The position numbers and the translations under genes were made by a program. From contig CAILNX010000026.1 of assembly GCA_903835685.1 (NCBI GenBank), positions 1-64,000 on the forward strand: 64,000 nt of DNA, given 5' to 3'. Source of the DNA: an uncultured delta proteobacterium. Its GTDB lineage: Bacteria; Desulfobacterota; Desulfovibrionia; Desulfovibrionales; Desulfovibrionaceae. Each line of letters opens with the position of its first letter. The stretch's first letter is position 1. Shown piece after piece: positions 51,326 to 64,000 of the stretch. The notes below the pieces were generated by a model. The model was not told the DNA's origin. It saw only the letters and a program-made list of their open reading frames with translations, and searched no databases.

Positions 51326-52327
51326 TCAGTTGAGAGCGTTCGCGGCGCGTTCCGCGCCCTGCTTGGCCGCGTTCATTCCCGTGCTCCCCGGCACCGGGGG
51401 TTGCCCGGATTCCGAGGAGTCGCCGATGAACAGGTAGCGGCCCGGCTCCAGCACAGGGGTGCGGTCCTGGCGCAAAAGCCAGGTTCGGCCCTTCAGCCGC
51501 ACCCACTGCTCATAATTGCCGTCCAAAATGGCCCAGCGATCCAGAAATTCGTTCAGCCCGGCTGAGATGCGCACGCAGCCCTTGGAGTCCCTGCGGCCCA
51601 GGCGGCTTTCCCCCTGGACCGGGTCCGTGGCGTGGACCAGAAGGCGCATCTGGGCCAGACTCGGGCCGCCCCGGTAGATCCGGAGCCCGGGCTGGAATCC
51701 GAAGTCCCAGACCCGGCTGCCCTTGGCCCCCAGGCCCATCCAGCCGTCCTGGTTGGGCGTGCCCAGGGCCCGGTAGCCGAAATTCTCCACCCGGTTCTCG
51801 AACACCCCTTCGGGGGTCAGGTAATGATCCTTGCCCTTGTCCATGTCCCCGGAGGAAATGAGATCCAGGCCCACGGGCGAAACGGTCCTGGTGGAGGGGT
51901 CGAAGAAACCGACCAGGGCCAGTTGGCGGTTCCGATTCCGGTCAATGTAGAGAAAGTATAGAATTTTTCTCATGTCAATCTGGGCCTTTTGGGCCAACCG
52001 CAGGATGTCCTGACTGCACTGCGCAATGTATTCCGCGTTTCCGGTGTCCAGACGTTGTATCTTCGCGTCTATCACCCTGGCCGCGTTGGATGCTCCGAGC
52101 TGTTTCTTGCGGGCAGTCAGTCTTTCAATGGTCCGCTGGTATACAACATCATGGAAGCACTGACGCAACATTTGTATTTCTTCATAGGGGACGAGCACTG
52201 CTTCCGTCCGGTTGTCCGCTGCGCCCCCGGATGGCGGGCTGGCCACGGGCGAGGCCTGGTCCGCGACCCCGGCCGCAAGGGGCGGGGCCAGGCAGAGGAC
52301 CAGGGAGAAAACCAGCCAGAACCGCAT
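51326..52327 (-). CDS. L,D-transpeptidase (YkuD-domain) protein
   Basis: 333 residues with a signal peptide (MRFWLVFSLVLCLAPPLAAG). The catalytic YkuD domain (about 150-270) has the conserved HATDP followed by SKGCVRIS, giving the His and the nucleophile Cys. A helical N-terminal region (about 50-130) and a short C-terminal extension flank it. Such enzymes make 3-3 crosslinks or attach lipoproteins to peptidoglycan. It ends 15 bases before the carboxypeptidase start, so both cell-wall enzymes are probably co-transcribed. Confidence 0.9.
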   Translation of the reverse strand: MRFWLVFSLVLCLAPPLAAGVADQASPVASPPSGGAADNRTEAVLVPYEEIQMLRQCFHDVVYQRTIERLTARKKQLGASNAARVIDAKIQRLDTGNAEYIAQCSQDILRLAQKAQIDMRKILYFLYIDRNRNRQLALVGFFDPSTRTVSPVGLDLISSGDMDKGKDHYLTPEGVFENRVENFGYRALGTPNQDGWMGLGAKGSRVWDFGFQPGLRIYRGGPSLAQMRLLVHATDPVQGESRLGRRDSKGCVRISAGLNEFLDRWAILDGNYEQWVRLKGRTWLLRQDRTPVLEPGRYLFIGDSSESGQPPVPGSTGMNAAKQGAERAANALN

Positions 52328-52461
52328 GTGCGTCACTTCCCTCCTTGCCATCCGGAGATGGAGCCCATCATTGACTCCGGACGAGGCAGATGTAGCTCTC
52401 GTTCGGGAAAGAATCAAGTGTTGAAAGTGATTTTTTTCATCAATAAGAGAACGACTCCTCC

Positions 52462-54678
52462 CTACAAGACAAGTCTGGCCACCTGATACATGGCTACGGC
52501 CAGACCGTAAGCCAGGACGGAGTTAAATATCAGGCTGAAGGCCGCCCAGCCCCGCCCGGCCTCCCGGCTGATGGTCACCAGGGTCACGAAGCAGGGGGCG
52601 TAGAGCAGGACAAAGACCATGAGGGACAAGGCTCCGGCCGGGGAGAAGGCGGGGTCCTGGGCCAGTTTTTCGGACAGGGCCCCGGAGTCCTCCTTGTCCA
52701 CCTCGCCCATGGCCAGGGCCGTGCCCAGGGTGGAGACGATGACCTCCTTGGCCGCCACGCCGCCCAAAAGGGCGATGTTCACCCGCCAGTCGAACCCGGC
52801 GGGCTTGGTCAGGGGCTCCAGGGCCAGGCCCAGGCGTCCGGCCAGGGTGTGGCGTACCTCGTCCTGGGCGCGTTCGTTCTTGCCGGTCTTCAGGAAGTCC
52901 TCCAGTTCGGCCAGGCGCTCGGCCGGGGCCTGGTCCTCCCTGGCCTCGGTGATCTGGCCCTCCAGGGCCTGAATCCGGTTGTCGTGGGTTTGGGCCAGAT
53001 TCTCGGGCAGGCCCGGGAAGGTCATGGCCGCCCAGAGCAGGATGGACACGCACAGGATAGTGGTCCCGGCCTTGCGCAGGTATTCCCAGCAACGCTCCCA
53101 GGTGTGTATGAGCAGGCCGCGCAGGGTGGGCAGGCGGTAGGGCGGCAGCTCCATGACAAAGGGGGTGGGTTCGCCCCGGACCACGGTCCAGCGCAGGACC
53201 CGGGAGACCAAGAGGGCCATGACCCATCCGCCCAGGGTCATGCTGAACATGATCAGGGGCGCGGTGCGGGGGAAAAAGGCCTGGGCCAGCATGAGAAAGA
53301 CCGGGACCTTGGCCCCGCAGGTCATGAACGGCGCGGTGAGGATGGTGGCCAGACGCTCCTTGGGGCTGCGCAGGGTGCGGGTGGACATGACCCCGGGCAC
53401 GGCGCAGCCTCCGGCAATGCCCCCGGACACGATGAAGGGCAGCACGGAATTGCCGTGCAGGCCGAAGATCTTGAACACCCGGTCCAGCATGTAGGCCATG
53501 CGGGCCATGTAGCCCGAGTCCTCCAGGGCCGAGAGGAGCAGGAACATGAGCAGGATCAGCGGTACGAAGCCCACGACCCCGCCCACGCCCTTGATCACCC
53601 CGGAAACCAGGAGCGAGCGCAAAAGCCCTTCGGGGACCAGGGCCGTGACCCCGTCGCCCAGGCGGTCGAAGACCCATTGCACGGCGTCCATGGGCAGGCG
53701 GCCCAGGGCGAAGGTGATGACGTAGATCAGGTACACCACGGCGGCCATGATGGCCGGACCCATCAGGCGCTGGGTCAGGACCCGGTCCAGGCGCTCGGAA
53801 GCGTCCAGGCGGAAGCCCCGGTCCTCCCGGGTGACCACGTCTTTCAGCAGTCCGGCGATGAACCCGTAGCGGTAGTCGGCGATGATGGCCTCGGGGGAGG
53901 CGCCCAGGGTCTGGTTCAGGTGGCGTTCGCATTTGGCGGCCATCTCTTCCAGCCGGGCCGAGGTGGCCGGGTCTTTTTCACGCCCCAGGGTGCGGATGAT
54001 GGGGTCCCCTTCCAGGTATTTGAGGGCGGTCCAGCGGGACGGGACCCGGTCCACCAGAAAGGCCGAGCAGGAGATGATCTCCTCCATCTCCTTCAAGGCC
54101 GGGTCCAGGTCCGGGCCGTAGGACAACTCCAAGGGACGCCAGTCCCCGCTCCGGGTCCGGGCCAGTTCGATGGTCCGGCGCACGGCCTCTTCCTTGCCCA
54201 GGCCTCGCCGGGCCACAGCCTCCACGGCCGGGCAGCCGATGAGCTTCTCCAACTGCCGGGTGTCGATGGTCTTGCCCTGGCCTTTCACCTCGTCCATCAT
54301 GTTCAGGATGAGCACCACCGGGATGCCCAACTCCAGGAATTGCACGCTCAAGTAGAGGTTGCGCTCCAGGGACCCGGCGTTCAGGATGTTCAAGACCACG
54401 TCCGGCCGTTCGTTGATGAGAAAATTGCGGGCCACCCGCTCCTCGTCGGTGTAGGCGGTCAGGGAGTAGGCCCCGGGCAGGTCCACGATCTCCAGTTCCT
54501 GGCCTTCGAATTCCATGCGGCCGGACTTCTTCTCCACGGTCACCCCGGGCCAGTTGCCCACGTGCTGGCGGGCCCCGGTCAGGGCGTTGAACATGGTCGT
54601 TTTTCCGGCGTTGGGATTGCCCGCCAGGGCCACCACCAGGGGTTTTACGCTAGGCGTCGATGAGCTGGACAAAGACAT
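52462..54678 (-). CDS. feoB: Ferrous iron transporter FeoB
   Basis: 738 residues. The N-terminal GTPase has GNPNAGKTTMFNALTG (G1), VDLPGAYSL (G3) and LNMMDE (G4), followed by a helical GDI-like part and the membrane domain with two Gate repeats (VPLILLMFLLLSALEDSGYMAR, shown in the part LLLSALEDSGYM, and GGCAVPGVMSTRTL). A polar coiled insert (about 590-640) sits in the periplasm or cytoplasm. It overlaps the feoA end by 29 bases. Confidence 0.96.
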   Translation of the reverse strand: MSLSSSSTPSVKPLVVALAGNPNAGKTTMFNALTGARQHVGNWPGVTVEKKSGRMEFEGQELEIVDLPGAYSLTAYTDEERVARNFLINERPDVVLNILNAGSLERNLYLSVQFLELGIPVVLILNMMDEVKGQGKTIDTRQLEKLIGCPAVEAVARRGLGKEEAVRRTIELARTRSGDWRPLELSYGPDLDPALKEMEEIISCSAFLVDRVPSRWTALKYLEGDPIIRTLGREKDPATSARLEEMAAKCERHLNQTLGASPEAIIADYRYGFIAGLLKDVVTREDRGFRLDASERLDRVLTQRLMGPAIMAAVVYLIYVITFALGRLPMDAVQWVFDRLGDGVTALVPEGLLRSLLVSGVIKGVGGVVGFVPLILLMFLLLSALEDSGYMARMAYMLDRVFKIFGLHGNSVLPFIVSGGIAGGCAVPGVMSTRTLRSPKERLATILTAPFMTCGAKVPVFLMLAQAFFPRTAPLIMFSMTLGGWVMALLVSRVLRWTVVRGEPTPFVMELPPYRLPTLRGLLIHTWERCWEYLRKAGTTILCVSILLWAAMTFPGLPENLAQTHDNRIQALEGQITEAREDQAPAERLAELEDFLKTGKNERAQDEVRHTLAGRLGLALEPLTKPAGFDWRVNIALLGGVAAKEVIVSTLGTALAMGEVDKEDSGALSEKLAQDPAFSPAGALSLMVFVLLYAPCFVTLVTISREAGRGWAAFSLIFNSVLAYGLAVAMYQVARLVL

Positions 54679-56918: not shown

Positions 56919-57812
56919 TCAGGGCCTGGAATTGGCCCGGATGAACTCGGCCATGGCCGCCACGGTCTCCTGCTCGACCCCGAAATAGCCGTGGGCGGAC
57001 TTGGCCTGGCAGGGCTCGGAAATGGCCGCTCGTCCGCCCTCCATGGTCCGCGTTTCCACGCGCGGGGAATTCTTGAGCTTCTCGGCGATGCGGGCCATGT
57101 CCCTGGCCGGGGTCACCTCGCACTGGTCCGAGGCGTGGCCCACCAGCAGGACCGGAACCCGGATGGCGGTCAGGTCCAGGCTCAGGACCCCGTTCAGCAG
57201 AAAATGCGTCTTGTGGCCGTGCAGGCTGCGGGTGATGGTGGAGGACAGGATGACTCCGTCGATGGGCCTGGCAAGGGTCTCGGCCCCTGTTCCGTCCCTG
57301 GGGACTTCCGGCGTTGCGCTCAGGCGCAGGGCCACGCCAGCGGCCGAGACCGTGCCCCGGCTGGTGCCCACCAGCCAGACCGGCAGTCCGGTCTCCCGGC
57401 GCAAATACCCGGCCACGACCGCCACGTCCTGGGCATGGGCCGCCCCGGAGCGGAACTCGTCGCCCATGCCAGCCTGCCGATCCGAGGGCGCGTCCAGGGT
57501 GGCCACCACCAGGCCCTGTTCCGCAAACAATTCCCGGGAGCGGACCAGGAAATTCCCGCCCAGGGACCCGATGCCCACCTCCTCGCCTTCCCCGTACAGA
57601 CCCAGGGCTCCGTCCCCGCCAGCCAGCAGGATGACGCAGGCCCGGGCCTGCCCGGGCTTCATCAGGAGAAAGTCCTGGGTCACCCCGGGCCGGGTGGGCA
57701 GATGGACCAGGATTTCCCAGGCCTCGGGCTCGGCTTGGGTCTGGGCCAGGGCCGGAGCGGCCGGGATCATGGCCGAGAGCAAGATCAGGGCGAGGGACAG
57801 AAAGAGTTTCAT
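56919..57812 (-). CDS. Secreted alpha/beta hydrolase
   Basis: 297 residues. Signal peptide ending PALA-Q (about residue 23). The fold is seen from CVILLAGGDGALGLY, the nucleophile elbow VWLVGTSRGTVSAAG (Ser near 150) and the late VPVLLVGHASDQCEV with the acid residue; the last His is probably in KSAHGYFGVE. Substrate unknown; esterase or dienelactone-hydrolase-like activity is plausible. Last gene of the TerB-ABC operon, with a 4-nt ATGA overlap to the WcbI-like gene. Confidence 0.85.
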   Translation of the reverse strand: MKLFLSLALILLSAMIPAAPALAQTQAEPEAWEILVHLPTRPGVTQDFLLMKPGQARACVILLAGGDGALGLYGEGEEVGIGSLGGNFLVRSRELFAEQGLVVATLDAPSDRQAGMGDEFRSGAAHAQDVAVVAGYLRRETGLPVWLVGTSRGTVSAAGVALRLSATPEVPRDGTGAETLARPIDGVILSSTITRSLHGHKTHFLLNGVLSLDLTAIRVPVLLVGHASDQCEVTPARDMARIAEKLKNSPRVETRTMEGGRAAISEPCQAKSAHGYFGVEQETVAAMAEFIRANSRP

Positions 57813-58660
57813 GCCCCGGCTTCCGTCTCCGGGTCCAGGGCCTTGACCCGCAGATAGCTGATGAAATCGTCGATGCCCAGGGCTCGGCAGTCCAGGTAGT
57901 GGTTCACGTATTCCAGGAAGGTCCCGGGTCGGCCGTAGAGATTGTACAGGGTGTGCGCGTCGGCAAAAGGCAGGCCGTGCAGGGCGGCCACCTGGGGGTG
58001 GATGGGCAGCTCGAATTCCGGATAGGGATCGGCTGCGGCCCGGGCCGTCTCCTCGGGCAGGGGGGCGAAACCCAGGAGGCGCAATACTTCCTGGGCCACG
58101 TGCAGGGTGAGCCGCCCCCTGGGGTGGTTCACGGTGTTGAACAGCCGCTCCTCACGGAACAGGGCGCGGACCAGGTCCGTGACCTTCACGTCCCAGCGCT
58201 CCTCCTTCTCGTACTCCTGGTCCCAGGAATCGGCGAAAATGCCTTCCAGGTCGAAATACCGGGTCAGGTCCGAGCGGGTGTACAGGTGGAGGATCTCCCG
58301 CTTTTCCAATCCCTTGTCCACCAGCAGGTTCAGGAAGGCGTCGGAGTAGTTGATGACCGGATTGGAGTCGATGAGCGGCCAGTACTGCTTGCAGTACACA
58401 TTGGGCAGGCAGAGCGCCCGGCAGGAGGGGGAGACCTTGGCCCGCAGGACCGGGCTGGACAGCCCGCCCCATTTCTCCTCCAGCCACTGGTGCAGAAAGA
58501 CGGCGCAGGAGGCCAGGTCCGTCTCGGGCACGGGCTGCCGGGTATAGTTCACGTACAGCCGGGTCTCGAAGGCCTGGCTGAAGTCGGGATGGGCGGCCAG
58601 CAGCTCCACCAGGGGGTCGCCCTGGCAGTTGGCCTGGATGAGGCAGAGCGCCCGGCTCAC
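57809..58660 (-). CDS. WcbI-like polysaccharide-biosynthesis protein
   Basis: 283 residues starting at GTG 58660, which overlaps the transporter stop as GTGA. The start LCLIQANCQGDPLVELLAAHP is typical of the WcbI family, whose characterised member is a capsule-biosynthesis protein with a CoA-binding site and putative acetyltransferase activity. The rest carries no membrane segment. In this operon it may modify a sugar or lipid handled by the transporter, which is inference. Proteins of this family more often lie in capsule clusters, which are absent here. Confidence 0.75.
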   Translation of the reverse strand: MSRALCLIQANCQGDPLVELLAAHPDFSQAFETRLYVNYTRQPVPETDLASCAVFLHQWLEEKWGGLSSPVLRAKVSPSCRALCLPNVYCKQYWPLIDSNPVINYSDAFLNLLVDKGLEKREILHLYTRSDLTRYFDLEGIFADSWDQEYEKEERWDVKVTDLVRALFREERLFNTVNHPRGRLTLHVAQEVLRLLGFAPLPEETARAAADPYPEFELPIHPQVAALHGLPFADAHTLYNLYGRPGTFLEYVNHYLDCRALGIDDFISYLRVKALDPETEAGA

Positions 58661-61600
58661 GTCCTGGTCCTGGATCGGCCGTTTCCTCGGCCGTTGCCCC
58701 GACCATTTCCTCGGACACTGCCCCGGGCCGCTCCGCCCAGGCGCAGGAGCCGGTTCATGCCCCAGAGCATGCGCTCCCGGAAGCGCAGGCAGACCAGGGT
58801 GCAGAAATTGAACAGCAGGGCCATGCCCAGAAGGATGAGCCCGTTGTAGACCAGGGTGCTGACCTGGCCCGTGAGCGGCAGTTGCTTTTCGCGCACGAAC
58901 ATGGGGTAGACCCGGGGCTGATCCGGGTCCCGGCCGTTTGGTCCCTCCCGGCCCTCGTACCCGTTCGGTCCAGTCGGCCCATTCTGCTGATCATTGTCCT
59001 CCCGCCATTTCTTTTCGGCCAGGGTCACGATGTCGTGCACGTTCTTGTTCCCGTAGTCGTGCTTGAAGCGGGTGCGGAAGGCCTCCAGCCGGTCGGTGAG
59101 CTCCTGGACCCGGGTGCGGAAGGCCTTGTCCCCGTGGGCCGCGATATAGGCCTCCCGGTCCTGCTTGAAGCGGATGAGTTCGCTGTTCAACTCCTCGTGC
59201 CGAGAGTCGTAGCGGTTCCCGGTCTCCTGGAGCACGATGAGCCCCTCGTAGGCCCAGCGCGAGGGCATGAACTGGCAGATTTCCGGCACCGGGCTGTTCT
59301 TGAACAGGGTCAGGTTCACGTTCATCTTCTCGTATTCGATCAGGGCCCCGCCCAGGATGATCTGGGGGATGAGCACCAGGGGCACGATGTTCTGGGCCGC
59401 CTTGGAGGACAGGCGGGGGATGGAGGAGATGAACAGCCCGCCGGAGATGGCCGTGTAGGACAAGAGGCAGAGGAATATCTGGTAGGGGAGGAACAGCTCG
59501 CGCACCTCCATGACCGCGAACCCGGCCAGGAGGAACAGGGCGTTCTGGAGCAGGGCGAAGAGCATGAGCACCAGGAGCTTGGCCGCCAGATAGCCCCGGT
59601 GGGTGATGTTCAGCATGCGTTCGCGCAGGAAAAGAGCCGAGTCCGAGATGATCTCGTCCGCGCTGTTGGTCATGCTCAAAAAGATGCACACGATGACCGA
59701 GACGAAGACGAAAGTGCGCAAGAGGTCGTTGGTGTACAGGGTGTAGTGGTCGAAAGGGGAGTAGCGCAGGATGAAGCCCACGGTCATGCCCAGGAAGGGG
59801 GCCTCCAGAAAGGTGATGACCAGGTTGGAGCGGTCCCGGGTCTTGTTCTTCAAGTTGCGGGCGAACTGGGTGACGAACTGGCTGAACCGCTCCGAGGTCG
59901 TGGGCAGGCGCGAGGGCGGCAGGTCCTCGGCCGTGGGCAGGCGCACGCTGGAGAACCAGGTCTGGACCACGCTCTTGCGGTACTCGTCCTGCCACCAGGC
60001 CGGGGAGTGCTTGCGCTCGCCCAGGGAGGACCCGTCGATGTCTTTTAAGGCGTCCTCCAGGGTGTCCAGGAGGATGCCCGGCTGCACGGCCTTGCAGTGG
60101 GGGCATTCCACCTCCACGGGCGCGCTGGTCACGGCCTCCATGTGCCGCTTGAAATACTCCAGGGCCTGGTAGGTGGGGCCGAAATAGGCCAGCTTGCCGC
60201 CCTGGTCCAGGAGGATGACCTTGTCGAACATCTTGTACAGCTTGGACCCGGGCTGGTGGATGACCACCAGGACCATCTTGCCGCGCAGGGCGATGTTGGA
60301 CAGAAGCTCCAGGATCTTTTCCGAGTCCTTGGAGGACAGGCCCGAGGTGGGCTCGTCCAGGAGATAGATTTCCGCGTCGGCCAAAAGCTCCAGCCCGATG
60401 TTCAGGCGCTTGCGCTCGCCCCCGGACAGGGTCTTGTCCGTGGGGCTGCCCGCGCGCAAGGAGCGCTTGGAGGTCATGCCGATATCTTTCAAGACCAGTT
60501 CGATGCGGGCGTCCAGCTCCTCCCGGCGCTTGTCCGGGAAGCGCAGCCGGGCGTGGTAGGACAGGTTCTCGTACACGGTCAGGTTGGAGAGCAGCAGGTC
60601 GTCCTGGGGCACGTAGCCGAGAAAGTCCTTGAGCAGGTCGTAGTCCTGGTGCAGGTCGAAGTCGTCCACCCGCACGGCCCCTTCCTGGGGCAGGAAGAGT
60701 CCGCTCAGGATGTTCAAGAGCGTGGACTTGCCCGAGCCGCTGGGGCCGATGATGGCGGTCAACTCCCCGTATTCGATGTCAAAGGACACGTCGTCCACGG
60801 CCACGGTGCCGTCCTCGAAGCAGTAGCGCAGGCCCTCGGTGGCCAGGCGGCGGAACTGGAACAGCTTCTTGTTCAGGGCGCGGCCGTCTGGCTCCGGGGT
60901 CAGAAAGGCGTCGTGGATGAACAGGGTGTCCCCCGGGACCAGGGTGGCCGAACCGGCGATGGGCTCGCGGTTCAGGTAGACCTGATAGGGGCAGTCCCCG
61001 GGATCGAAGAAAAAGGAGGCGTCCCGGCGGATAAGCGCCGCGCTCCAGGTCCCGGACAGGTCGTCCTGGAGGAACACCGGGCTGCGCAGGTTGTTGCCGA
61101 TCTCGATGCGCTCCTGGTCCGGGTCCAGGGGGATGCGCCGCCGGGCGTTCAGATAATAGTAGAGTTCCCGGGTGTTGATCCGAAATCCGTTGATGTAGGG
61201 CACGTCGTCCAAGGTGAGCGGGGTCTCCTGGGTCAGGGGGGCCTTGTCCAGGGCGGCCAGGGTGCTCGGGTCCAGGGGGGTGAAGCTTAAGCGAGTCCCG
61301 CGCACGGCCACCTGGGCCAGGGGAGAGGCGGGCCGTTCCTCCTGAAAGGCCAGGCCCTGCTCGGTCTCCACGATGAACAGCCGGGAGTCCAGGGGGTGGA
61401 GCTTGTTCTCGAAATGGATTTTTAAGTCCTGGTAGCGGATGTGGTAATTGTCCACCTGGATGAAATGGTTGTGGGAGATGCGCGCGGAAATGCCCGGGAC
61501 CAGGGCCGAGCCGTCCAGGGAGACCAGGTGAGCGTGGTCGTTCTGGGTGATGCAGTAGAGGTTGTGGATTTTGTACAGGATGAGGTCCAGGCCGGGCAGG

Positions 61601-62112
61601 GGCAGGCCTAAGTCCCCGTCCTGGTCGCCGGTCACGCGCAGGGCGATGATCCCGGCCCGATCCGGGTCCCCGGGCAGGGGAAAGGGCAGGCCCAGGATAT
61701 TCTCGATGAAGGCCAGGTCGTGGACGTTTATGTCCAGAAGTCGGCCCATGTACCGGGCGGTCTCCACCTCGTCCGGGTGAGCCCGGTCGAACCGGAGGCA
61801 TTCGTAGGTTTTGAGCAGGCAGAAGATGCGGTCTTGGCGGGCCAGACGGTTGTTCAAGGCCCGGGCCACCTCGGCCGGATCGATGGAGGAGGCCGCGAAC
61901 TCCTCGAACATGCGGCCCAGGCGCTCGGCCATGTCCGGGGAGTACAGGCGGCCGTAGAAATTGGCCACGAACCGGCGCTCCTCGGGCGTGACCGGGCCGT
62001 CGGCCCTAGCGGTCAGGGCCAGGAGTTTGAGCACCTCCACGGCCAGGCCGCTCCTGAAAAAGGCCTCGGCGGCCTGGACCGGCGCGCCCGCGATGTCTGG
62101 CGCTGTGGTCAT
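58657..62112 (-). CDS. TerB / FHA-like / ABCG-type transporter fusion
   Basis: 1151 residues. Residues about 15-150 are TerB-like (LLALTARADGPVTPEERRFV). Two beta-rich regions follow (about 180-280 and 350-430); the second, from ERIEIGNNL to GDTLFIHDAFL, resembles an FHA domain. The ABC ATPase (about 440-680) has IIGPSGSGKSTLLN, LSGGERKRLNIGLE and EIYLLDEPTSGLS. An ABC-2/ABCG membrane domain (about 770-1000) and a final helix (about 1090-1115) follow. Between them is a long outward or inward loop with a collagen-like run of six Gly-X-Y triplets (near 1060). A half-transporter of this kind exports lipids, glycans or peptides as a dimer. Confidence 0.88.
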   Translation of the reverse strand: MTTAPDIAGAPVQAAEAFFRSGLAVEVLKLLALTARADGPVTPEERRFVANFYGRLYSPDMAERLGRMFEEFAASSIDPAEVARALNNRLARQDRIFCLLKTYECLRFDRAHPDEVETARYMGRLLDINVHDLAFIENILGLPFPLPGDPDRAGIIALRVTGDQDGDLGLPLPGLDLILYKIHNLYCITQNDHAHLVSLDGSALVPGISARISHNHFIQVDNYHIRYQDLKIHFENKLHPLDSRLFIVETEQGLAFQEERPASPLAQVAVRGTRLSFTPLDPSTLAALDKAPLTQETPLTLDDVPYINGFRINTRELYYYLNARRRIPLDPDQERIEIGNNLRSPVFLQDDLSGTWSAALIRRDASFFFDPGDCPYQVYLNREPIAGSATLVPGDTLFIHDAFLTPEPDGRALNKKLFQFRRLATEGLRYCFEDGTVAVDDVSFDIEYGELTAIIGPSGSGKSTLLNILSGLFLPQEGAVRVDDFDLHQDYDLLKDFLGYVPQDDLLLSNLTVYENLSYHARLRFPDKRREELDARIELVLKDIGMTSKRSLRAGSPTDKTLSGGERKRLNIGLELLADAEIYLLDEPTSGLSSKDSEKILELLSNIALRGKMVLVVIHQPGSKLYKMFDKVILLDQGGKLAYFGPTYQALEYFKRHMEAVTSAPVEVECPHCKAVQPGILLDTLEDALKDIDGSSLGERKHSPAWWQDEYRKSVVQTWFSSVRLPTAEDLPPSRLPTTSERFSQFVTQFARNLKNKTRDRSNLVITFLEAPFLGMTVGFILRYSPFDHYTLYTNDLLRTFVFVSVIVCIFLSMTNSADEIISDSALFLRERMLNITHRGYLAAKLLVLMLFALLQNALFLLAGFAVMEVRELFLPYQIFLCLLSYTAISGGLFISSIPRLSSKAAQNIVPLVLIPQIILGGALIEYEKMNVNLTLFKNSPVPEICQFMPSRWAYEGLIVLQETGNRYDSRHEELNSELIRFKQDREAYIAAHGDKAFRTRVQELTDRLEAFRTRFKHDYGNKNVHDIVTLAEKKWREDNDQQNGPTGPNGYEGREGPNGRDPDQPRVYPMFVREKQLPLTGQVSTLVYNGLILLGMALLFNFCTLVCLRFRERMLWGMNRLLRLGGAARGSVRGNGRGNGRGNGRSRTRT

Positions 62113-62122
62113 GCGCGGCGGC

Positions 62123-62557
62123 CTATTTGTAGCCGGAAACGATGTACCAGTAGGCCCGTTCCTTCTCGAAATCCATCCAGTTGATCTTCACGTGATAGGT
62201 GCCGGTCCATTTGGCCTTGAACACGATTTCGGCCGTGGGACCCTGGCCGCTCTTGGCCACGGGCATCCAGTTCTCGTCATAGACCAGGATGGTGGCCATC
62301 CGGACGTTCTCGTCCCCCCCGGTGGACACCACATACTCGTTGCCAGCGGTCATCTGGGTGTCCAGGTAGTAGGGATCGCCGGGCAGGAGCACCCCGATCT
62401 GGATGTCCCGGACGCTGTAGCCCTTCTTGTTGTAGGACTCCATGGCCGCATAGGCCAGGTCCCGGGCCTTGAACCGGTCGGCCGAGACCAGATGGGGCAA
62501 GACGAAAAGGATGGCCGCAGCCAGGACCAGGGTCGAGAGGCGCGATCTGTGGAGCAT
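62123..62557 (-). CDS. Secreted protein of the TerB-ABC operon, unknown
   Basis: 144 residues with a signal peptide (LSTLVLAAAILFVLPHLVSA). The mature part looks like a small beta sandwich (IQIGVLLPGDPYYLDTQM, VRMATILVYDEN, TGTYHVKINWMDF), as in proteins that bind or carry hydrophobic or sugar ligands. It starts five bases after the upstream secreted protein and ends ten before the transporter, so all three are made together. Family not recognised. Confidence 0.78.
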   Translation of the reverse strand: MLHRSRLSTLVLAAAILFVLPHLVSADRFKARDLAYAAMESYNKKGYSVRDIQIGVLLPGDPYYLDTQMTAGNEYVVSTGGDENVRMATILVYDENWMPVAKSGQGPTAEIVFKAKWTGTYHVKINWMDFEKERAYWYIVSGYK

Positions 62558-62561
62558 GGGG

Positions 62562-63356
62562 CTATCCTTTCTCGATGGTTTTCAGGATCTCGGCGCTGAT
62601 GGCGTTCAACTTGGCCAGGCTTTCCTTGGGCACCGGGCGCTGGTAGCCCACATTGATGAGGGCCTTGATCTCCGGCAGCCTGCTGAGCAGGGCCTTGATG
62701 GCCGGGTGCTTCCGGGATTCGGGACCAAGGGCGTTCATCTTCGCGGCGAAGTAGTCCACCAGGCGGGGCTGGTAGAGCACCGAGGAGGAGGTCTCGTCGT
62801 ACTGGGTCATGAGCACCTTGGTGGTGGCCTTTAAGCCCTCCAGCCAGCCCCCGGCGCTGACCAAAAGGGCGGTCTCGTCGTCGCCCAGGCGGCGCATCTC
62901 GGCCTCCACGTCCCCGCGCAGCTTGTCCAGCTCCTTGCGCACCTCGTCCCATTTTTCCTGCTTGGCCAAGTCCTCGAAGGTCTTGCTCTTGTCCAGCAGG
63001 GTCTTTTGCACCAGCAGCTCTTCGGCCAGGGTCATGATCACCGTGATCATCTCGCCCAGGCGGGTCTTGTCCTTGGCCTGGATGGCCAGGAAGCCGTCGG
63101 CCGCGCGCACGCCCAGGTTGAGCGCCCGGGAGAGGCTGCTGGGGTAGTCGTATTTGCGGTTGTAGGAGGCGGCCGCGTTCCAGTCCGCCTCGCCGACCTT
63201 GGCCAGGGCCACGAAGACCTCGGCCGGGGAGGGCAGGAGGATGTTCTCGTTGAAGCGGGGCTTTTCGTCGTCGGTCAGGCCGGTATCCTGGGCCTGGCAT
63301 AGGCCAGGAAGCAGGAGCAGCAGCAGGGCGGCCAGGAAAGGTCTCAGTGATTTCAT
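62562..63356 (-). CDS. Secreted helical protein of the TerB-ABC operon, unknown
   Basis: 264 residues. Start 63356 is set by AAAGGAG eight bases upstream; longer in-frame sequence precedes it but lacks a ribosome site. A signal peptide (RPFLAALLLLLLPGLCQA) is followed by an all-helical periplasmic part rich in Lys, Leu and Glu, with a late YQRPVPKESLAKLNAISAEI. First gene of the five-gene operon. Family not recognised; a ligand-carrier or peptidoglycan-side partner of the transporter is possible. Confidence 0.78.
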   Translation of the reverse strand: MKSLRPFLAALLLLLLPGLCQAQDTGLTDDEKPRFNENILLPSPAEVFVALAKVGEADWNAAASYNRKYDYPSSLSRALNLGVRAADGFLAIQAKDKTRLGEMITVIMTLAEELLVQKTLLDKSKTFEDLAKQEKWDEVRKELDKLRGDVEAEMRRLGDDETALLVSAGGWLEGLKATTKVLMTQYDETSSSVLYQPRLVDYFAAKMNALGPESRKHPAIKALLSRLPEIKALINVGYQRPVPKESLAKLNAISAEILKTIEKG

Positions 63357-63593: not shown

Positions 63594-64000
63594 ATGCAGC
63601 AGGAAATCCTGGCCCGTCTGGGGTCCTTTGTGGCCGCCCTGGCCGTCCTCGGCTGGCTGGAGGCCGCGCGCCCCCGTCGGCCCCGGGTGGCGTCCAAGGC
63701 CCGGCGCTGGACCGCCAATCTGGGCATCGTGGCCGTGGACACCCTGGCCGTGCGTCTGCTCGTCCCGCTCCTGCCCGTGGCCCTGGCCGCCCTGTGCCAG
63801 GAGAAGGGCCTGGGCCTTTTGCCCCTGCTGGGCCTGACCGGGGTGGGCGGTCTGGTCCTCACGCTTTTGGTCCTGGACCTGGCCATCTATTATCAGCATC
63901 GGGCCTTCCACCACTTTCGCCTCCTGTGGCGGCTGCACCGCATGCACCACGCGGACCTGGACCTGGACGTGACCAGCGCCCTGCGCTTCCACCCCGGGGA
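63594..64000 (+). CDS. Fatty-acid-hydroxylase-superfamily membrane protein, 5' part
   Basis: The gene starts at ATG 63594 behind GGGAGG and is open to the right edge (135 codons). Hydrophobic helices at about 6-21, 44-66 and 75-99 are followed by YYQHRAFHHFRLLWRLHRMHH, of which HRAFHH and HRMHH are the first histidine boxes of the di-iron fatty acid hydroxylase / sterol desaturase superfamily. The remaining boxes lie beyond the window. It is divergent from the TerB-ABC operon. Confidence 0.82.
   Translation, partial: MQQEILARLGSFVAALAVLGWLEAARPRRPRVASKARRWTANLGIVAVDTLAVRLLVPLLPVALAALCQEKGLGLLPLLGLTGVGGLVLTLLVLDLAIYYQHRAFHHFRLLWRLHRMHHADLDLDVTSALRFHPG

Follow-up and report, generated by a model that had tools for sequence, protein, structure and literature searches.

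A conserved cassette of a TerB/FHA-like/ABCG fusion protein and two secreted proteins in Desulfovibrionaceae

As listed in Table 1, five ORFs (P1 to P5) lie in a row on the minus strand of the window, the 64,000-nt stretch of DNA from an uncultured delta proteobacterium of the Desulfovibrionaceae that was analyzed as a whole, and a conserved three-gene unit was extracted from this apparent five-gene operon. The best reading is that the unit is the cassette P1-P2-P3, not five genes. It was confirmed that P3 joins a TerB domain, FHA-like domains (as predicted by structure modeling), and an ABCG half-transporter, and the two secreted proteins of unknown family, P1 and P2, gain a likely partner. 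I favor, at a probability of roughly 0.55, the reading that the cassette encodes an ABCG exporter that is regulated and is served by two periplasmic partners of its own. No published description of this gene set was found in literature searches.

The locus and its conserved core

The gap between P1 and P2 is 4 nt and that between P2 and P3 is 10 nt, while P3/P4 and P4/P5 each overlap by 4 nt. The first-pass annotation had described five genes with gaps of 4 to 10 nt or 4-nt overlaps, and all of its coordinates and spacings were borne out. Signal-peptide-like N termini were recognized by eye in P1, P2, and P5. The window is GC-rich and contains many long spurious ORFs. Since up to nine other genomes encode homologues of P1, P2, and P3, at 28-54% identity, these three are real genes rather than chance ORFs. 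No match to a sigma-70-type promoter was found in the region. Just upstream of P1 (window 63597-64000+), a divergent gene starts whose histidine motifs are of the type known from the sterol desaturase/fatty acid hydroxylase group, and the divergent arrangement suggests an upstream region shared with P1. On the far side of P5, a FeoB-like ferrous iron transporter of 738 aa (52462-54678) and a likely L,D-transpeptidase-type envelope protein (51326-52417) were noted by eye.

How widely is the arrangement distributed? Of the 199 family genomes, 10 were found to carry P1, and these are the very ones in which the P3 head was found; they represent 6 of 44 genera. P1, P2, and P3 adjoin in every readable holder; the gene order is P3-P1-P2 in G014, the cassette is divided between two contig ends in G022, and P1 lies at a contig end in G092. 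At eight other measured loci, the gaps range from -4 to 7 nt between P1 and P2 and from 21 to 220 nt between P2 and P3. The pairwise identities of P1, P2, and P3 follow each other closely (r=0.95-0.96), with 0 of 5000 permutations as high. Across the phylum (395 genomes), P1 was found in no genome outside those family holders, and the profile of the P3 head detected elsewhere TerB domains alone. Plasmid searches gave nothing. A P3 search of the genome contigs gave one match, which was set aside as an unrelated ABC protein. Perfect co-occurrence and adjacency back the earlier proposal that the two secreted proteins are dedicated partners of the transporter. The earlier view of all five genes as one system did not hold, since the other core holders have neither P4 nor P5 beside the cassette. 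Thus, the neighborhood is conserved for P1-P2-P3, which stay together in all readable holders, and not for P4 and P5, which adjoin the cassette only here.

Table 1. Positions of the genes, domains, and related loci. Coordinates with two dots are those of the window; those with an L number belong to loci of other genomes.
Feature	Coordinates	Strand	Description
P1	62562..63356	(-)	264 aa; secreted; predicted all-helical; core component
P2	62123..62557	(-)	144 aa; small, secreted; probably beta-sandwich; core component
P3	58657..62112	(-)	1151 aa; TerB, three FHA-like domains (predicted), and ABCG half-transporter; core component
P4	57809..58660	(-)	283 aa; GTG start; WcbI family (PF18588); neighbor outside the conserved cassette
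P5	56919..57812	(-)	297 aa; secreted; GTSRG motif; probably alpha/beta hydrolase; neighbor outside the conserved cassette
TerB-like helical domain, P3 residues 23-140	61693..62046	(-)	PF05099 at 9.6e-7, above cut-off; AlphaFold2 helical bundle
FHA-like domain 1 plus helix, P3 residues 155-238	61399..61650	(-)	AlphaFold2; Foldseek search with the entire N-terminal region
FHA-like domain 2 plus helix, P3 residues 242-322	61147..61389	(-)	AlphaFold2; Foldseek
FHA-like domain 3, P3 residues 324-417	60862..61143	(-)	AlphaFold2; alignment; invariant CPYQ replaces the canonical SxNGT segment
Nucleotide-binding domain (NBD), P3 residues 425-660	60133..60840	(-)	Intact Walker A, Q-loop, signature, Walker B, and H-loop
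CxxC motif ECPxCKxVxP, P3 residues 669-678	60079..60108	(-)	Between NBD and membrane domain (TMD); invariant in 5/5 members
ABCG-type membrane domain, P3 residues 745-1110	58783..59880	(-)	PF01061; six hydrophobic segments by hydropathy
Long region separating hydrophobic segments 5 and 6 (EL3 position), P3 residues about 925-1085	58858..59340	(-)	Hydropathy; alignment
dCache-HAMP-SpoIIE phosphatase and STAS genes	L016:11571-14194; L019:2878-5941; L061:1511-7519		Beside the cassette
ABCG cousin	L068:7918-10977		1019 aa; in G301, another family

The membrane part of P3 and its secreted partners

The C-terminal part of P3 is a complete ABCG half-transporter. In addition to the TerB match (Table 1), Pfam gave ABC_tran (4.8e-33) and ABC2_membrane (2.7e-14), and the ABC motifs are intact in all five P3 members compared. 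The best NCBIfam match was the ABCG-type TIGR00955 (1e-69, under the family's own cut-off), and ABCG structures were among the profile matches. The CxxC motif supplies two Cys residues per chain, and in a dimer of P3 the four could come together as a metal site or a clasp. About 160 residues, judged by hydropathy only, separate the fifth and sixth hydrophobic segments, and this region contains a charged, probably helical stretch; its extracytoplasmic placement follows from ABCG topology.

The homologues of P1 in the other nine core holders are 41-54% identical, and a P2 homologue, at 28-44% identity, adjoins P1 in every other holder checked. Pfam gave nothing credible for P1, P2, or P5; the matches of P1 and P2 to HalX, Imm1, WDR11, and IreB are below cut-off and were judged to be due to chance. 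The AlphaFold2 model of P1 is all-helical with an overall pLDDT of 77, the first 50 residues being unreliable, and its fold had no match in the PDB at E<=0.001. P2 is probably a small beta-sandwich, judging from its sequence pattern; it has no family match, and its profile matched a single PDB entry, the collagen-binding domain of ColH, at a non-significant E of 0.51. Judging from its linkage, P1, which has no fold relative, is most likely a partner of P3. At two loci of one genus, a small secreted Cys-containing protein with no Pfam match is encoded directly downstream of P3 (L018:6174-6629 and L060:4818-5297); it is another lineage-specific addition.

On these grounds, P3 would probably act as a homodimer, exporting through the inner membrane a substrate that is hydrophobic or resembles a lipid. 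The long TM5-TM6 segment would most likely be the docking site of P1 and P2 in the periplasm, where they may take over the substrate or control when it is released. Proteins with homologous ABCG folds can also have functions other than export. P3 might instead be an ABC protein that transmits force or a signal and so drives periplasmic P1 and P2, like the MacB- or LolCDE-type machines, and the two dedicated secreted partners, the long TM5-TM6 segment, and the large cytoplasmic head would suit such a machine. However, the membrane domain and the NBD are of the ABCG type, a class of known transporters, and no MacB/LolC-like membrane domain was detected, so I regard this alternative as unlikely.

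The N-terminal head and its possible regulation

Residues 1-439 of P3 were modeled by AlphaFold2 with nine family members (mean pLDDT 86). In the model, residues 12-140 are helices and three beta-rich domains follow (Table 1). A Foldseek search of the head against the PDB returned FHA structures nearly throughout, with the N-terminal tandems of EssC/YukB at the top (9qks, E 1.6e-4; 1wv3; 5fwh), followed by EmbR, GarA-type proteins, and both FHA domains of Rv1747 (6cah, 6ccd). Most E-values other than the best were between 0.001 and 0.1 and are modest singly; it is the consistency of the list that supports the FHA-like folds. The head also matched 2h5n, which I take to be a TerB-like structure, over about 108 columns (TMt 0.60, E 0.11). 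The FHA-like domains of P3 are invisible to Pfam, and a profile comparison of the head with the PDB found no FHA domain beyond a non-significant GarA-type match; a weak beta-hexosaminidase match was judged to be due to chance. Thus, the TerB, FHA-like, and ABCG parts that the first-pass annotation had placed in one chain are upheld by Pfam together with AlphaFold2 and Foldseek, and the structure prediction that it had suggested as a check gave a TerB-like helical bundle and three FHA-like folds.

The TerB domain is recognized by Pfam in only two of the five P3 family members. In the phylum-wide search with the head profile, the nearest TerB domains were those of DjlA-type J-proteins (E down to 1e-9). 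Six of the seven TerB loci that were translated have a J domain with HPD and are DjlA-type, and such matches were set aside. TerD, the one searched among TerC/TerD-type partners, is absent from this genome. The link to tellurite and stress, which had been drawn from the TerB domain, is therefore not sustained.

Canonical FHA domains bind phosphothreonine through G-R, S-x-x-H, and N-G. With positions placed by reading the alignment of nine sequences and not by structural superposition, these residues are unconserved at the equivalent positions of all three FHA-like domains; G-R and S-x-x-H strings occur in some P3 members as strays outside these positions. At the corresponding positions, FHA-like domain 3 has invariant N340, W356, and C374-P-Y-Q. 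Thus, a bacterial ABCG pump with FHA-like domains would carry another conserved residue set at the phosphothreonine site. Inspection of ORF tables by eye found no Ser/Thr-kinase-like gene adjoining any copy of the cassette. These results bear on a scheme of the Rv1747 type, in which a Ser/Thr kinase phosphorylates either the transporter or its partners, and phosphothreonine is recognized by the FHA domains. FHA domains precede an ABCG half-transporter in both proteins, and the structures of Rv1747 FHA-1 and FHA-2 were among the Foldseek matches. However, the residue set differs, no kinase was seen in the flanks of any copy, and the best structural matches, the N-terminal FHA domains of EssC, also lack the phosphothreonine residues (PMC4925161); the scheme is doubtful, slightly more so than a force-transmitting P3. 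In the preferred reading, that of a regulated exporter, the N-terminal 420 residues would form a cytoplasmic docking and regulatory head that makes no use of a canonical phosphothreonine site.

In some relatives, candidate regulators lie beside the cassette. In L016, the genes of a SpoIIE-type phosphatase, a STAS protein, P1, P2, and P3 follow in this order on one strand, and L019 is likewise arranged; in L061, P1 is directly preceded by the STAS gene, with the SpoIIE gene close by on the opposite strand. These genes were seen at three loci in two genera, and none is present in the neighborhood in this genome. The phosphatase is probably a membrane sensor, as weak matches to dCache and HAMP suggest. 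The STAS motif of SpoIIAA is D-S-S-G with a phosphorylatable Ser. Since the three STAS proteins read A-S-M-G at this position, they are not standard anti-anti-sigma factors. MlaB is a precedent for a STAS protein that binds the ATPase of an ABC system, and with this precedent, a direct STAS regulator of P3 is conceivable. In these relatives, the membrane phosphatase and the STAS protein would probably tune the system. A more tentative possibility, well short of the main reading, is that the cassette represents an undescribed class of envelope export, in which the head reads a signal other than phosphothreonine, delivered in those relatives through a STAS protein whose state the membrane SpoIIE-type phosphatase sets, and the substrate is passed on to P1 and P2 as dedicated periplasmic carriers of new fold families.

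Neighboring genes and comparison with known systems

P4 is a clear member of the WcbI family (Pfam 7.3e-47), and its Cys12 aligns with the CoA-binding Cys14 of WcbI (4bqn). P5 gave only a weak match to Abhydrolase_4 (0.16). Homologues of WcbI occur in 133 of the 199 family genomes, elsewhere than beside the cassette; core holders that have one carry it on another contig or far from the cassette, and G014 and G070 have the cassette and no WcbI homologue among those listed. Homologues of P5 occur in 13 of the 199, among which this genome (G000) is the sole core holder. In several genomes with both, the P4 and P5 homologues are on separate contigs. P4 and P5 are thus private additions of this genome, outside the conserved system. 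The 4-nt overlaps suggest joint translation of P3, P4, and P5 in this genome, so that a local role is possible; in this organism alone, P4 and P5 may serve to modify what is exported. The least likely alternative is a five-gene system in which a stress-linked pump would export a glycan or lipid modified by the WcbI-like protein and the hydrolase would be a functional component; the translational coupling implied by the overlaps and the CoA-binding Cys of P4 agree with it, but the distribution of P4 and P5 and the lack of TerD oppose it. The claim of a glycan substrate rested on WcbI and is unsupported as a property of the system, while it could apply in this one genome. WcbI itself is known from capsule biosynthesis in Burkholderia (PMC4104973), and P4, unlike WcbI, lies outside any capsule cluster seen here.

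A divergent relative of P3 was found in G301. This ABCG cousin is 37% identical to P3 over 547 NBD-TMD columns and has CPHC, which is similar to the CxxC motif of P3; its N-terminal extension is shorter than that of P3, and the N-terminal region lies outside the alignment. A secreted 287-aa protein is encoded directly downstream (the pair spans L068:7918-11912). It looks like P1 by eye, and it was not accepted as a P1 relative because hhalign gave no support. Together, the two genes may represent another form of the system that has diverged from the first.

Two known families share single features with P3. EssC/YukB, the type VII secretion ATPase, is likewise a membrane ATPase having FHA domains without phosphothreonine residues (PMC4925161), but it belongs with the FtsK-like secretion ATPases rather than the ABC transporters, and it has no TerB domain. 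The DjlA-type J-proteins are membrane-associated and have a TerB domain, while a J domain is missing from P3.

The nearest described protein is Rv1747 of Mycobacterium tuberculosis, an ABCG half-transporter whose gene shares an operon with pknF (PMC3908365). It has two FHA domains, and export of phosphatidylinositol mannosides has been proposed for it but is unproven (PMC5549992, PMC3908365). Both proteins have FHA folds N-terminal to the ABCG NBD-TMD in one chain, those of P3 as predicted, and both would probably export an envelope compound (PMC5549992, PMC3908365). P3 differs from Rv1747 in the added TerB domain and third FHA-like domain, the unconserved phosphothreonine-site residues, the lack of an adjoining kinase gene, and the two secreted partners. 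Thus, P3 resembles Rv1747 in outline and falls outside the kinase-FHA-ABCG systems on the features tested, and the regulation of an FHA-ABCG pump becomes testable outside mycobacteria.
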